A DNA stretch of 64,000 nucleotides from positions 159,152 to 223,151 of the forward strand of contig JADIIU010000008.1 in assembly GCA_027603945.1 (NCBI GenBank), read 5' to 3'. Positions 13,828 to 46,633 of this stretch are shown piece by piece. A model generated the notes under the pieces. It was not told the origin of the DNA and did no database searches. It saw nothing but the letters and a program-made list of their open reading frames with translations. Source of the stretch: Terramyces sp. JEL0728. Lineage: Eukaryota > Chytridiomycota > Chytridiomycetes > Rhizophydiales > Terramycetaceae. The position numbers and the translations under genes are program-made. Position 1 is the stretch's first letter; each line of letters begins with the position of its first letter.

Positions 13828-14847
13828 CTATACATCTTTAATTAAACCAACAAAAGAAGGCCGCTGTTGGTCAAACATGAACCCTCTGGTTCCAACAGAA
13901 TACCCGATTACGCCATTTCCATACTGAGCACTTCCAACAACCCCGCCAACATAAACCTCGTTGATTAAATTCCCGCTAAAATCTATTTCTCGTATCCATC
14001 CATCTGTATCACCATACAAAATATCATCCTTTATATCAAAATATAGTCGCTGGTTTTTAGCCTTCCTTTCTATCAATTTAGTGCTCAGATTCCGCGCGTC
14101 GTAAATGGATACCCCGCCATTGCGCATCGAATACACAATGTAATTATCTTTTTGCTTGATTTGAGTTATTCCATTCGGCTCTTTAATGTAGTTGGTATAC
14201 CCGTCCTGGTAAAGAGTAATCAACCCGTTAAAAGTGCCGATACAGTTCAAATGGGTAAAATCCATGCAAGATACAAGTCCCTGTATTTTCAAAGATTCTT
14301 TTTCTTGACCGGATATATCGTATACTTGAACCAGGTTCTTGAACCCAAAGTATAGATCTGTATGATTGAATTTAGCAGTTAGCGGAGTTATTTGCTCACC
14401 CAGCAAGTGTGTTTTGTATGCTTGGCGCTGGTAATAATGCACTGAGTCGTAGAGCACTGGCGGATGGTCTTTTATTGATATCACAAAGCATTTGTGCTGG
14501 TCTGATAGGCTGTAGTACGGGTAAAAGTCGAATGAATAGATTTGGTCTGGGAATTTACAGGCTTTCCTTTCGTCCATTCCAATCCTCTTGATTAGTTTTG
14601 TATTTTTTGGGTTCACACTATGCAGCGATTCACTCTCCACTGCATCCAACCGCATTGATCGATCCATTGGGTTCAAGTTACTGTCGAATGAGTTTTTGTT
14701 CTGTGTGTGGTTTGAATCCAACTCCAGTCGATCCATTGCAGGGACGCTTTCCAAATCCTGCAAGTGCAATAATTCGTTGAATTCAGTCAGCCCAACCACT
14801 TCATTCCCACCAGGTGCAAACCAAATCTGAGAATAAAAATTGTTCAT
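13828..14847 (-). CDS. beta-propeller-like protein of unknown function, 339 aa
   Basis: A single-exon protein made of short beta-strand repeats with WD40-like spacing, for example YFGFKNLVQVYDISG, CIGTFNGLITLYQDG, YSMRNGGVSIYDARN and LYGDTDGWIREIDFSG. These suggest a WD40 or related propeller that acts as a scaffold. No specific family is recognised. The first ATG (14845-14847) overlaps the start codon of the divergent PI synthase gene by two bases. The conserved-looking region begins only about 100 residues in, so a start further in is possible. Confidence 0.6.
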   Translation of the reverse strand: MNNFYSQIWFAPGGNEVVGLTEFNELLHLQDLESVPAMDRLELDSNHTQNKNSFDSNLNPMDRSMRLDAVESESLHSVNPKNTKLIKRIGMDERKACKFPDQIYSFDFYPYYSLSDQHKCFVISIKDHPPVLYDSVHYYQRQAYKTHLLGEQITPLTAKFNHTDLYFGFKNLVQVYDISGQEKESLKIQGLVSCMDFTHLNCIGTFNGLITLYQDGYTNYIKEPNGITQIKQKDNYIVYSMRNGGVSIYDARNLSTKLIERKAKNQRLYFDIKDDILYGDTDGWIREIDFSGNLINEVYVGGVVGSAQYGNGVIGYSVGTRGFMFDQQRPSFVGLIKDV

Positions 14848-15649
14848 GCAACAAATCACAATCCTCAAATCTTTTATAGAACAAAAAACGAATACAAAAC
14901 TCAACCCGGTATTTTTCTACATTCCCAACTTGATTGGTTATTCCAGGATTATATTTGGGTTGATTTCATTGCTACTCATGAATAGGTATCCGTATTCAGC
15001 CATTTTGTTTTATGGGATTTCTTGTCTTTTGGATGCACTCGATGGATACGCTGCGAGGTTTGTTTTGTTAATGTAGGCATTATAATCAGTCATCGCAGTT
15101 CGGAGCTGTGTTGGATATGGTAACCGACAGGTATACTCTATTAATCCATAGGTAATTAGATTTAACCCTAGGTGTCTAATATATTAATCCACAGGTACGT
15201 GGGGTTTTAATGATAGGTAACCAGCATTAACATAGGTCTACTACCGCATGCTTGTTGATACACTTGGCCAGACTTTACCCCTCATTCACATTTCTTTTCC
15301 AACTACTGGTCTCGCTAGACTTGTCATCTCATTACATGCACATGTTTTCCTCTCTAAAGTCAGGAAAAGAATCTCATAAACAAGTGGACGAAAACACCAA
15401 CAAATTCATGCAACTCTACTATACAGACAGGACCGTCTTGTTCCTGGTGTAATTATTACTAACCGCAGATGTGCTGGGAATGAATTGTGTTTTGTGTTTT
15501 TATATGCCCTGTTCTGGTTCACAAACTGGTTTACTATTGGTGGATTGATTTTGACTTTACCTGTATGTGGGTTCAAACAATTCATGAATGTGATCCAGTT
15601 GCAAGAAGCCAGCACATTTTTGGCCGAGTTGGATACTAAAAATAAATGA
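14846..15649 (+). CDS. PIS1: phosphatidylinositol synthase, 219 aa
   Basis: The enzyme makes phosphatidylinositol from CDP-diacylglycerol and myo-inositol in the ER membrane. Joining four exons (14846-15057, 15077-15130, 15236-15448, 15469-15649) gives a protein of the length of yeast Pis1. The CDP-alcohol phosphotransferase motif is complete: DALDGYAAR, then FGAVLDMVTDR followed by STTACLL. YIPNLIGYSRI precedes it and CAGNELCFVFLY follows. Two gaps are ordinary mini-introns (15058-15076, 19 nt; 15449-15468, 20 nt). The third is 105 nt made of five stacked intron-like units, inside the codon for the Arg of VTDR. The start ATG overlaps that of the divergent propeller gene. AATAAA lies at the stop codon. 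The family call is certain. Confidence 0.95.
15131..15235 (+). other. five end-to-end mini-intron units at one intron site
   Basis: The 105 nt between two perfectly joined PI synthase exons split without remainder into five units: 15131-15151 (21 nt), 15152-15171 (20), 15172-15194 (23), 15195-15216 (22) and 15217-15235 (19). Each begins GTA or GTG, ends TAG or CAG, and carries its own TTAAT or TTAAC motif five to nine bases before the end. Every junction reads AG|GT. The second unit is GTAATTAGATTTAACCCTAG and the fifth GTAACCAGCATTAACATAG. The units are not copies of one another. They could be removed one by one, or as one composite intron. Confidence 0.85.
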
Positions 15650-35467: not shown

Positions 35468-36579
35468 TTAATTTATTAAACGTCTGCGTGCGTTAATAAA
35501 CCAGTTATTCAATTGGCTCATGCTAAGATTAGTTTTAGCAGCCAATTGTTTTTTCTCTTGATCAGTAGGGTATGGATCGCGGACTAGATTAAAAAGAAAC
35601 TACTATTTGCAAAGAACCACTGTTTTAGTATATCATGAATATCGCTGGAATAATTTCTCCTTCGTTTTCTATTTCCTTCTTCATTCCTTTCAGGTTTTTT
35701 CTTTTTTTCTACTTCGGATTCATCTTCCTGATCCGTTTCATGGTAGTTTGCTTTTGGCTGTTGCTGCTTGGCTGATTTTACTTGAGGAGTCACTAGTCGA
35801 CGTTTTTTAACATTTTCAATCTTGTATTTTGTATTAAATTCATTCAGTGTTTCTTGACTGCTTGATAGAGTCAACAGCGTGCTGATCGCAGACTCTTCGA
35901 TTTGCGGAATGGATATGATACGGTAAGCTAGCCTGTCGTTGTTACTGATTAATTCATGGCTGATATCTACTATGCGATCATAGTTTGTTGGCGAAGGGGT
36001 AAACTGATCCACTAAATTGTTGACAGCTGTCGTTGCGCCGAGTACTTTCTCTCTGTAGCGCACTTCTTTTCCGTTTTCGATATAAGCAATTCTGTAGCCA
36101 TTCTCTGATTGACATTTGTCCATCAAATTACTAAAATCTCTATTTTCCATTTGAACTTCCAACCACTCTTTCTGACGCTGTTCGACCAAATCATTCTTAC
36201 CTGATCCGTTAATATTCCCATTTGCGAAATTCGTCGATCCAAAATGGCAGCAGTGGGTGAATACTATTCCACAAGGTATATGTTCAGCGATTTTTGAGTA
36301 ATACTGTATCTCTGAAATCGATATTTGTCTTACATTGACTATAAATAATAAACAATCAATCTCCTGGCCAATCTTTGATTTGAAATCGGGTGGAGTGTCA
36401 ATCACCGTCAAGCTGCCAAGTGTTTTTATCGACACTGATTGAGTGCAAGGTAAGGTTGAATTATTGACGGGAAAGGACTTTGATATCAGCAAGTTTCCTA
36501 CAGTGGATTTACCGGCGCCAGAGCTGCCTAGCAGCAAGATAGTCTTCATTTTTGTTGGAATTTTTGATGTTGAACGCAT
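35468..36579 (-). CDS. AIG1-like GTPase fused to TALE homeodomain, copy 1, 363 aa
   Basis: Residues of about 11-240 form a P-loop NTPase: [19 protein letters not shown] (G1), VIDTPPD (G3-like) and [11 protein letters not shown] at the G4 position. This is the layout of AIG1/GIMAP or septin-like GTPases. An acidic and lysine-rich linker follows, then a TALE-type homeodomain: [30 protein letters not shown] and the recognition helix [13 protein letters not shown] 20-nt intron (35584-35603, GTAGTTTCTTTTTAATCTAG) sits inside the homeodomain, and splicing it is required for the fold. G3 has Pro where Gly is usual. A sensor GTPase carried on a DNA-binding protein is an inference. ATG 36577-36579; a second ATG at 36549 would also give a complete GTPase. 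Confidence 0.85.
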
Positions 36580-36926
36580 TCATGACACCATAAGCCACAG
36601 TCACGAAAGGACTGCTGGATCATGAAATAAATAGAAACTGGTGGATTTTCCAGTGGAATAACGTTAGCAAGGAAACATTGCTTACGGATTCTGTCTGCTG
36701 CTGAAAGTTTTGGTTTGGTTCATTGAAAATTCTTGGTGATGGAATGAGCCACTTTGTGACATTTTGACTTTGACTTTTACAGCTGAGGTTGCATCATCTT
36801 CACTCCGCCTATGCTTCTGAAAATGCAGTGTTTCAAAGTGGTTTGTGATTAGCTCATGTTGATTGGTGGCATCTTACCGCCAGTCACTTTGTTCACAGCT
36901 TCAACAAACAATAAAATTGAATTAAT
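36580..36926. other. intergenic region between the two GTPase-homeodomain genes
   Basis: About 350 bp between tandem minus-strand genes. No coding frame is supported; it should contain the promoter of copy 1. Confidence 0.4.
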
Positions 36927-38549
36927 TTATTTACTTTCTTTGACTCTTTCCCAAATACCATCAATCATCAAAAGGTGCTTTTTACGAACAAATGCCAACC
37001 AAGCATTAAGATTATTCTTTTCCCATCGGCGCTTTCCGCACATTTCTTCTTTTGTATCTTCATCTGGAAACGGATTAGAAAGATTTTCAAGCATCCACTG
37101 TAAAAGCATCTGCTCGGTGGTTTCATCAGGGATTTCTTTTGTCGGCACAGATTTAATGAGGAATCTACGACGGGCATTGATGAACCAAGTGTTAACTTGC
37201 ATTAATGTAAGACCTGTTTCTTTCATTAATTGAATCTTTTCTTCTTCGGAAGGATATGGGTTAGATCGATGAGCCTGCATCCAATCTTTCAAGAGTTCGT
37301 TTTGTTTATAAGTATGATTTTGGCGGCCTCTTTTGCTCCCGGTTGTTTTTCCTTTGTAGCTAAGCTGCACGTTATCAGGTGGTGGCCGTTTCTTGCTTGG
37401 GATGACTTCTTGGCTTTCATCAGAGCTGTGGCCATCGTATTTGGAATTTTTAAATGTCATTAACGAAGCAGCAGCACTTTCATCTCTATTTTGATTGCTA
37501 GGAGTACCCATTTTCGGGGAAAGAGAATAATTTCTTGGGATAGGTGTACGATTTACAATTGGGGAACTATGCATGGAGCCATGAAGCGGTGGAGCCAAGC
37601 CAGATAGTTGATTCAGACCGTCGATGGACCTAATGCTTGGTAGTTTCAAGTTTCTATCGATAGGTGTTTTTGATTTAATAATAGGTCTGGGAGCATTGTA
37701 GGGTGAGCTAGGCAAAGATTCATACGGCCGCACATTTATTCCATAGCCATCCATTCTTGGCGAATTCACAAGCGTTTCCGGCTTTAATTCTACATCAAAC
37801 GCTCTTCTATCGTATAGCGGCGACGCTGGTCTACTCTGGAAATCGTCTGTATGGATAATGAAGCCGATTTTGGGGGTGCTTGAATTTGAAACAAATTCCT
37901 GGTTGATTTCAATATCAGTCAATGCAACTTTAGCGTCAATTGCGTATAGTAACTGGTCAAGAGAAGCTTTGCTTTCTTGAACATTAACTGTATCAAAGCA
38001 AAGCTCCTGTTCATCCGCGCAAGCATCGTATGGCGGGTTTTCAATAAACACAACCCGCTTTTCGCAAAAACTAAACATTTCCATGAATCTAGGATCCGCC
38101 TTCTGCATCTGGACCCACACATCTTGCTCTTCCCTTGATTTCGACATATGAAAGCAGTTTGTAAATACCAAGCAAAATATCCTGTTCAGTCCTGAAAACA
38201 GCTGCGTGCATCTCTGAAACATCTGAAAAGTTGAATCTGGTATACGGCCAAGTGGTAATACAAAGAGAATCGAGTTGAGGTGCGGTGAAGGTGATTTTCG
38301 CAGTTCCGTTAAAGCATCAGAAACGTTCTTCATGGTGCTGTACTGATCCACTCCTTGCGTATCAATAATTGTACGCTTTGATGCCAGAGAATCGATGATG
38401 TGGTATCCAGTAGTAGATTTCGAAGGTCCTGTTTGGAAGGAGTTTCTAACAGGAAGTTTTGTAATAGCGTCGCAATATAGTAAATTTCCTATGCTGGATT
38501 TGCCGGACGATTTGGGTCCTATTATGAGGATTGTCTTTAGTTCGTTCAT
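36927..38549 (-). CDS. AIG1-like GTPase fused to TALE homeodomain, copy 2, 540 aa
   Basis: A single uninterrupted exon, so the fusion cannot be a splicing artefact. Residues 5-230 are a P-loop GTPase-like domain: [19 protein letters not shown] (G1), [11 protein letters not shown] (G3), [11 protein letters not shown] (G4 position). Residues 240-400 are Ser/Pro-rich and probably disordered. A TALE homeodomain follows (about 402-462): [29 protein letters not shown] and [13 protein letters not shown] second, degenerate homeodomain-like segment (about 475-530) reads [20 protein letters not shown], with [12 protein letters not shown] at the place of helix 3, lacking the WFxNxR core. Copies 1 and 2 are clearly paralogous but quite diverged. 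Stop codon lies next to AATAAA. Confidence 0.88.
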
Positions 38550-45751: not shown

Positions 45752-46633
45752 TTACTGTTCTTGTTTGTCAATTCTTTCAGCGTTGGCTTTGCCGATACAT
45801 GGATTCTTTGTTGGGGGATTTCTAGTTGCGCAGAAACCTGGTGGACATTTGTTGATTACGAATGTTGTTGCCGAGGTAAATAGTTTGAAACTAGTGTCAT
45901 CGATACATTCGAAAGAGTTTGGAACGTGTGCAGTAAGAGAAGCTGCATCTGAACCTGTGTTTCCAGTGTTAGCAGGAGGGTTGGCAGTAGGAGCAGCACT
46001 TTGATTTTCAGTTCCATCGATACGAGCTGCATTCGCTTTACCAATACATGGATTCTTTGTTGGGGGATTTCTAGTTGCGCAGAAGCCTGGTGGACATTTG
46101 TTGATTACGAATGTTGTTGCCGAGGTAAATAGTTTGAAACTAGTGTCATCGATACATTCGAAAGAGTTTGGGACATGAACCGTGTTATCAGCTGAAGAGT
46201 TACCGGCACCTTGGTCATTTGCATTGCCTTGATCGTCTGCACCTTGATCTTCTGCGTTGCCTTGATCATTAGAATCTCCTTGGTCATCAGCAGCTTTATT
46301 TTGACCGGTTCCATTTGCAGCGTTGTTTACACCAGCAGCAGCAAATCTAGCCAATTTATCAGCGTCAGTATCACAAGTTACACTGGTGCCAGCTTTGTTG
46401 ACCAAAGGAAGAACTTGACAGGACAAGGTAGCCCCACAAGCTGCAGTTACAGTGAATTTGCCACCTTGACAGATTCCTACTTTGTCGCCAATACAAAAGT
46501 TTCCAGTGCCAGTGCAAGCATCTCCTTCTTTGTTGTTGAATTTTGCTGCATCTAGAGCAGCAGCGTCTTTGCCATTTTGAACTTGAGTTGGGTTTTGAGC
46601 AATTGCAAATGAAAGTAATAAATATTTAAACAT
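45752..46633 (-). CDS. secreted protein with CBM19-like modules, 293 aa
   Basis: A signal peptide (MFKYLLLSFAIAQ) is followed by a Cys-rich module (residues 35-95), then a low-complexity Asp-Gln-Gly-Asn repeat (units such as DDQGN, NDQGN), and two nearly identical Cys-rich modules (FECIDDTSFKLF, KCPPGFCATRNPP, NPCIG). The four-Cys pattern and CPPGxxC motif match CBM19-type chitin-binding modules of fungal chitinases. No catalytic domain is present, so it may coat or shield chitin, or bind it in the wall. The two last modules are encoded by a 128-bp direct repeat differing at one position. AATAAA overlaps the stop. Confidence 0.72.
   Translation of the reverse strand: MFKYLLLSFAIAQNPTQVQNGKDAAALDAAKFNNKEGDACTGTGNFCIGDKVGICQGGKFTVTAACGATLSCQVLPLVNKAGTSVTCDTDADKLARFAAAGVNNAANGTGQNKAADDQGDSNDQGNAEDQGADDQGNANDQGAGNSSADNTVHVPNSFECIDDTSFKLFTSATTFVINKCPPGFCATRNPPTKNPCIGKANAARIDGTENQSAAPTANPPANTGNTGSDAASLTAHVPNSFECIDDTSFKLFTSATTFVINKCPPGFCATRNPPTKNPCIGKANAERIDKQEQ
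45795..45922. repeat. 128-bp direct repeat, copy 1
   Basis: Near-perfect direct repeat inside the secreted CBM19-like gene, 249 bp from copy 2. It encodes the C-terminal module. Confidence 0.9.
46044..46171. repeat. 128-bp direct repeat, copy 2
   Basis: Matches copy 1 except for one base (gaagcctgg in place of gaaacctgg). Such identity points to a recent duplication or gene conversion. Confidence 0.9.

Follow-up and report, generated by a model that had tools for sequence, protein, structure and literature searches.

Abutting intron-like units in the PI synthase gene PIS1 of Terramyces sp. JEL0728 and similar stacks elsewhere in the genome

The PIS1 gene and its five-unit interruption

The window analysed here, a stretch of 64,000 nucleotides of the chytrid Terramyces sp. 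JEL0728, carries the gene PIS1. It comprises four exons and three interruptions, namely two ordinary mini-introns and a stack of intron-like units, all in phase 2:

14846..15057, + strand: PIS1 exon 1, modelled start codon at 14846 (gene model and homology)
15058..15076, + strand: single mini-intron of ordinary type, 19 nt, in phase 2; it scores at the 28th percentile of introns
15077..15130, + strand: PIS1 exon 2, 3′ end ...GACAG
15131..15151, + strand: stack unit 1, 21 nt, TTAAT; its retention adds no stop
15152..15171, + strand: stack unit 2, 20 nt, TTAAC; top score among the units
15172..15194, + strand: stack unit 3, 23 nt, TTAAT; weak, in the bottom 1% of introns by score
15195..15216, + strand: stack unit 4, 22 nt, TTAAT
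15217..15235, + strand: stack unit 5, 19 nt, TTAAC; exon GT directly 3′
15236..15448, + strand: PIS1 exon 3, starting GTCTACT, so that the stack has AG|GT context at either end
15449..15468, + strand: single mini-intron of ordinary type, 20 nt, with a CTAAC motif, in phase 2 (gene model)
15469..15649, + strand: PIS1 exon 4, stop codon at 15647-15649

The spliced gene encodes a protein of 219 residues with a Pfam match to PF01066 (CDP-alcohol phosphatidyltransferase) at residues 25-151, and its closest matches are PI synthases (120 of 2,064 hits listed). Among the matches listed, identity was 69% to a JGI protein, 68% to the chytrid Globomyces pollinis-pini, which is the best named match, 67% to two others and at most 55% thereafter. 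A search of solved structures yielded no match for the PIS1 protein or for that of the neighbouring gene. Run on the whole window, the automatic gene model missed PIS1; it called the gene only when given a shorter locus (L015) and laxer settings. PIS1 and a divergent gene at 13828-14847 (− strand) have modelled start codons that overlap at 14845-14848, so that no separate 5′ spacer would lie between the two genes.

Rfam and tRNA scans of the whole window were empty. Elsewhere in the window, two adjacent paralogues at 35468-38549 (− strand) combine an N-terminal AIG1-like GTPase region, below the Pfam cut-off, with a C-terminal KN-type homeodomain, a pairing for which we know of no precedent. 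An intronless gene at 45752-46633 (− strand) encodes a possibly secreted product in which a long internal segment is duplicated almost exactly and a linker is rich in Asn/Asp.

The stack junction lies within residue 89 of the spliced PIS1 protein, inside the PF01066 match. In an alignment with ten homologues, selected from the 120 listed matches, the protein is gap-free at this junction once all 105 nt are removed; the segment GAVLDMVTDR directly before the junction is invariant, and STTACLL after it is conserved without being invariant. Since the junction falls into a conserved and gap-free block, exactly 105 nt must be removed from PIS1. Retention of one or more units was evaluated for all 31 combinations, and 30 of them shift the frame or add a stop, the exception being unit 1 alone, which adds seven residues.

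The preliminary description of this site had divided the 105 nt exactly into five GT...AG units with AG|GT at the borders and a TTAAT or TTAAC motif in each, and its coordinates, lengths and motifs were all confirmed. The interval 15131-15235 is tiled without remainder by units of 21, 20, 23, 22 and 19 nt, a TTAAY motif (TTAAT or TTAAC) is present in all five, and all six borders, two outer and four inner, read AG|GT. It had further held that the units are normal introns of this genome in size and motif; this agrees with the 333 single introns of 19-24 nt described below, for unit 3 only marginally. By score, unit 1 falls into the bottom 13% of the introns of this genome and unit 3 into the bottom 1%. 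Each unit has the GT...AG ends, the branch motif and the local intron size of a U2-type intron, unit 3 marginally so, and at all four inner borders an abutting AG|GT regenerates a donor with each step, the sequence feature expected of recursive splicing. The tandem repeat finder made no call at the stack. These findings support the interpretation that PIS1 holds a genuine stack of intron-like units, with exons of zero length between them.

Introns of the genome and further stacks

The intron population was sampled in 264 kb, that is, the window and the first 200 kb of contig 1, by a simple spliced-gene model allowing lengths of 17-25 nt. The sample contained 135 genes with 337 introns (1.75 per kb of coding sequence), all of 19-24 nt. 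For the 333 single introns, the numbers with lengths of 19, 20, 21, 22, 23 and 24 nt were 74, 163, 66, 22, 6 and 2, respectively; 87% start with GTA, 80% contain TAAY and 39% contain TTAAY. A whole-genome search detected a U2 snRNA at C70:14443-14635 with the normal branch-pairing GTAGTA. No match to U1 snRNA was obtained in the whole-genome search, a result of little weight as the controls of the search gave none either.

When lengths of 14-150 nt were allowed, a sharp peak at 19-22 nt stood over a background of at most four introns per length. As this pass was too noisy above 25 nt, a stricter pass for 28-160 nt was used in its place, yielding 15 long candidate introns (28-149 nt) in the 264 kb; both flanks are supported as coding in 11. 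Several of the 15 look, by eye, like joins of adjacent genes, and none divides into units. The sensitivity of this pass was limited, since of two known stacks in the 264 kb one escaped it and the other was returned as a pair of abutting introns. Longer introns, which may exist in this genome, appear to be rare.

Pattern counts over the whole genome were uninformative by themselves. Two adjacent TTAAY units were matched 100 times, compared to 252 times for the reversed control, and the other pattern search gave 346 matches compared to 326 for its control, the first 100 places being listed. Since such counts lie barely above or even below the control level, they were not taken as evidence and each site had to be proven on its own. 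By reading frame, the first 30 loci fetched (26 distinct sites) contained seven stacks, PIS1 counted, and a second stack is present at locus L003. All eight runs of overlapping pattern matches other than PIS1 (C1:242k, C4, C12, C30, C48, C85, C130 and C150), drawn from the TTAAY-pair matches and the 100 listed places of the other search, are frame-compatible stacks of 3-7 units. The unbiased 200 kb held two stacks, which suggests, with wide error, some 150 in the genome.

These searches together added 16 frame-compatible stacks to the one in PIS1, and the objection that no other stack might exist falls away. The 17 stacks, all compatible with the reading frame after joint removal, have 2-7 units (six with two, three with three, five with four, two with five and one with seven) and total lengths of 39-149 nt; 15 of them are PIS1 itself or were reached through the TTAAY or TAAY patterns, a route that favours good-looking units. 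Eight of the 17 have a junction that lies within a Pfam match (PIS1, Usp, HDAC, LisH, CAP-Gly, proteasome, Mgm101 and EXS), the LisH match with 20.1 bits being below its cut-off of 21.6. Frame evidence is thin in three stacks: C150 is of low complexity with flanks open in all frames, C130 has short flanks with two frames tied, and the call for C1:242k is based on 25 and 28 codons. Signals are weak in the last unit of C4 and in the first three units of C12. The latter is the longest stack (L056/L057, G000:C12:187450-187950), with seven units in 149 nt, a GC donor in the last unit and weak branch motifs in the first three. The gene model did not adopt the stacks at L008, L053, L054 and L056, and at L055 it excised only three units, treating the remaining one of the four as exon; for the stacks that it missed, the call rests on reading frames, together with Pfam matches for C4, C30 and C48.

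To what extent such chains arise by chance is indicated by an order-4 Markov sequence of 48.8 Mb, which under the same scoring contained 127 chains of two units, a single chain of three and no longer ones, compared to seven two-unit chains and the five-unit PIS1 chain in the real sample (264 kb, or 528 kb on both strands). Two observations speak for chance. The pattern pairs at L007, L020 and L030 were rejected as stacks despite good scores, as their frames fit one intron each, a reading guided by the names of the proteins; and the gene model adopted two of the seven two-unit chains of the 264-kb sample and left out five. As an explanation of the stacks, however, chance arrangement or assembly error is extremely improbable and for PIS1 refuted in the main: the simulated sequence has no chain above three units, the PIS1 protein demands exact removal, and at seven other loci the junction lies within a Pfam match. 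At the level of sequence, these results demonstrate that the PIS1 stack is one member of a genome-wide class of predicted stacks.

Likeness among units and exon context

Three stacks contain units that are clearly copies of each other. Units 2-4 of C30 are identical, and three adjacent units are near-identical in C48 and in C85, the similarity between units 2 and 4 of C85 not being significant; in all three stacks the first unit differs from the repeated ones. The repeated unit of C30 has no other copy in the genome with fewer than three mismatches and five places with three (one for the reversed control), and that of C48 has no copy with up to three mismatches outside its own stack. A DNA search with the C85 locus returned only the locus itself. 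The copies in C30, C48 and C85 are best read as candidate local tandem duplications of whole introns and not as mobile introners.

In the other 14 stacks, PIS1 among them, no pair of units is alike at p < 0.01, and the 68 unit pairs of these stacks have a mean similarity of 0.33 compared to 0.36 for random pairs. For PIS1, the best of the ten pairs reaches p = 0.04; its units show no clear likeness and are no more alike than random introns. The units of the 14 unlike stacks may derive either from old duplications or from another source.

The exon context of the stacks differs from that of single introns. AG|GT on both sides was found for four of the 17 stacks but for only four of the 333 single introns (Fisher p = 0.00024); an upstream exon AG is present at 10/17 compared to 79/333, and a downstream exon GT at 6/17 compared to 16/333. 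An intron in AG|GT context has AGGT at both ends and therefore possesses what slippage by one unit requires.

The same context would be expected if introns were repeatedly inserted at AG|GT, by an introner-like process or by reverse splicing, each insertion remaking its target. The preliminary description had proposed such repeated gain at one point, or ongoing introner-like activity, and the two parts fared differently. Repeated gain is visible in the near-identical tandem units of C30, C48 and C85 but not in PIS1, where the lack of relatedness among the units would itself fit independent insertions. Dispersed introner-like insertion was not borne out: the two repeated units tested, C30 and C48, are without close copies elsewhere, and among the 333 single introns 185 of 55,278 pairs are similar compared to 111-126 in three column shuffles, a mild excess which is the remaining point in its favour. 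Neither those repeated units nor the single introns amount to the near-identical introns, dispersed over many loci, by which introners are recognised. In addition, with about 19,000 introns spread over about 11 Mb of coding sequence, hand arithmetic predicts that random independent gains would give about 17 coincident pairs but only about 4e-6 fourfold coincidences, compared to eight observed stacks of at least four units. Independent random gains could account for some two-unit stacks, not for the four-unit ones, and as a general explanation we regard repeated insertion as very unlikely.

The stacks might conversely be the remains of longer introns. If the spliceosome narrowed to about 20 nt, long introns would have persisted only if AG|GT borders and branch motifs had arisen in them by mutation and tiled them into units. 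Ordinary fungal introns span lengths such as 39-149 nt, the range into which the stack totals fall; the absence of relatedness among the units of 14 of the 17 stacks and the small number of untiled candidates above 25 nt (15 compared to 337 mini-introns) also agree with a division of this kind. Yet it accounts neither for the clear tandem copies in three stacks nor for the enrichment of AG upstream and GT downstream, which it does not predict, and it is on the whole unlikely, if the least so among the alternatives to duplication. For the PIS1 stack in particular, the origin is open between an old duplication and an ancestral long intron that was divided up.

Proposed splicing and growth of the stacks

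We consider it probable that the 105 nt of PIS1 are five complete and abutting mini-introns, which a spliceosome tuned to about 20 nt removes unit by unit, and that such stacks grow by tandem duplication. A U2-type spliceosome would remove the units mostly singly and in free order. Each inner AG|GT would serve twice, as 3′ site for one unit and as 5′ site for the next, the AG of the preceding unit standing in for the two exon bases preferred directly before a donor. Since all borders are identical, any order of removal, including the skipping of a weak border, yields the same mRNA. A stack would grow when AGGT copies, lying about 20 bp from each other, slip or misalign and an entire unit is thereby duplicated locally and in tandem; the spacer letters would then drift while the splice signals are retained.

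The strength of the inner units bears on how they are used. Among the 24 inner units of all stacks, 22 score at least 0.5, a proportion that is inflated because most stacks were found through the motif pattern; of the sample's 7,833 GT..AG intervals with lengths of 19-23 nt, 16% reach this level. The median score of inner units (4.2) is below that of edge units (6.8), and given these lower scores the inner sites may not all be in use. Stack units have a mean length of 20.8 nt compared to 20.2 nt for single introns.

These scores could also mean that PIS1 has a single intron of 105 nt, removed in one step with the first GT as donor and the last AG as acceptor, the inner units being decoys or relics. 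The outer sites are compatible with this, the inner units are weaker than the edge units, unit 3 of PIS1 being very weak, and the 15 untiled candidates mentioned above could represent introns of such length. The latter are few beside 337 mini-introns and partly suspect as joins of adjacent genes, however, and the inner units have kept donor, branch and acceptor although their remaining letters are mutually random. Removal in one step is quite unlikely in our judgement, somewhat more so than the division of a long intron. We infer from the retained signals that the units are, or recently were, removed singly, with a degree of slack since weak borders could be skipped.

Several known systems share single features with these stacks, as far as the cited passages describe them. 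Recursive splicing at ratchet points with zero-nucleotide exons removes long introns of Drosophila and human in steps (PMC8605326, PMC6110456, PMC10809524) and likewise juxtaposes acceptor and donor as AG|GT with no exon between. It divides long introns, whereas in this compact genome each segment is itself a complete intron of about 20 nt, and as many as seven follow one another. Stwintrons are complex intervening sequences of fungi that are removed by consecutive splicing (PMC8469720), an internal intron splitting a splice motif of the external one; the PIS1 units are not nested and the motifs of every unit are intact before any splicing, which rules out a stwintron. At dual-specific sites, enriched in genes with tandem repeats, one AGGT serves as both 5′ and 3′ site (PMC10809524). 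Those sites are human, were defined by an assay and RNA reads and are often unannotated, whereas here constitutive borders between introns are predicted.

With respect to gain, tandem duplication of an AGGT segment is described as creating a new intron with the protein unchanged (PMC3443670); there an exon segment is copied, whereas here a whole intron appears to be copied beside itself. The introner-like elements of fungi are introns that multiply (PMC4457414). Introners form dispersed families, whereas the copies seen here are local and in tandem. Minimal introns throughout a genome are described for the ciliate Stentor, with lengths of 15-16 nt (PMC9505925); those of the present genome are comparably pervasive but have 19-24 nt and are stacked, and the word "tandem" does not occur in the main text of the Stentor paper. 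A literature search on abutting introns, which extended to few subscription journals, found no description of such stacks in the sources it covered; what it returned on short introns and on the genomes of chytrids was background.

Intron gain is a long-standing question for which few cases have been caught in the act, and stacks with identical adjacent copies would show the process at several stages at once. It is conceivable, although we hold it with less confidence than the duplication of units as such, that mini-introns behave like minisatellites in this lineage: units flanked by AGGT would be gained and lost by slippage with the protein untouched, any number of units would be tolerated, and the stacks would represent a self-feeding gain of introns in place. 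The stacks also probe the minimum size of a splicing substrate and the independent removal of minimal introns that are neighbours without an exon between them, and the genes that bear them will be overlooked or misread by gene finders in which every exon must be longer than zero. The similar stacks elsewhere in the genome suggest that an intron can be copied beside itself and so multiply where it stands.
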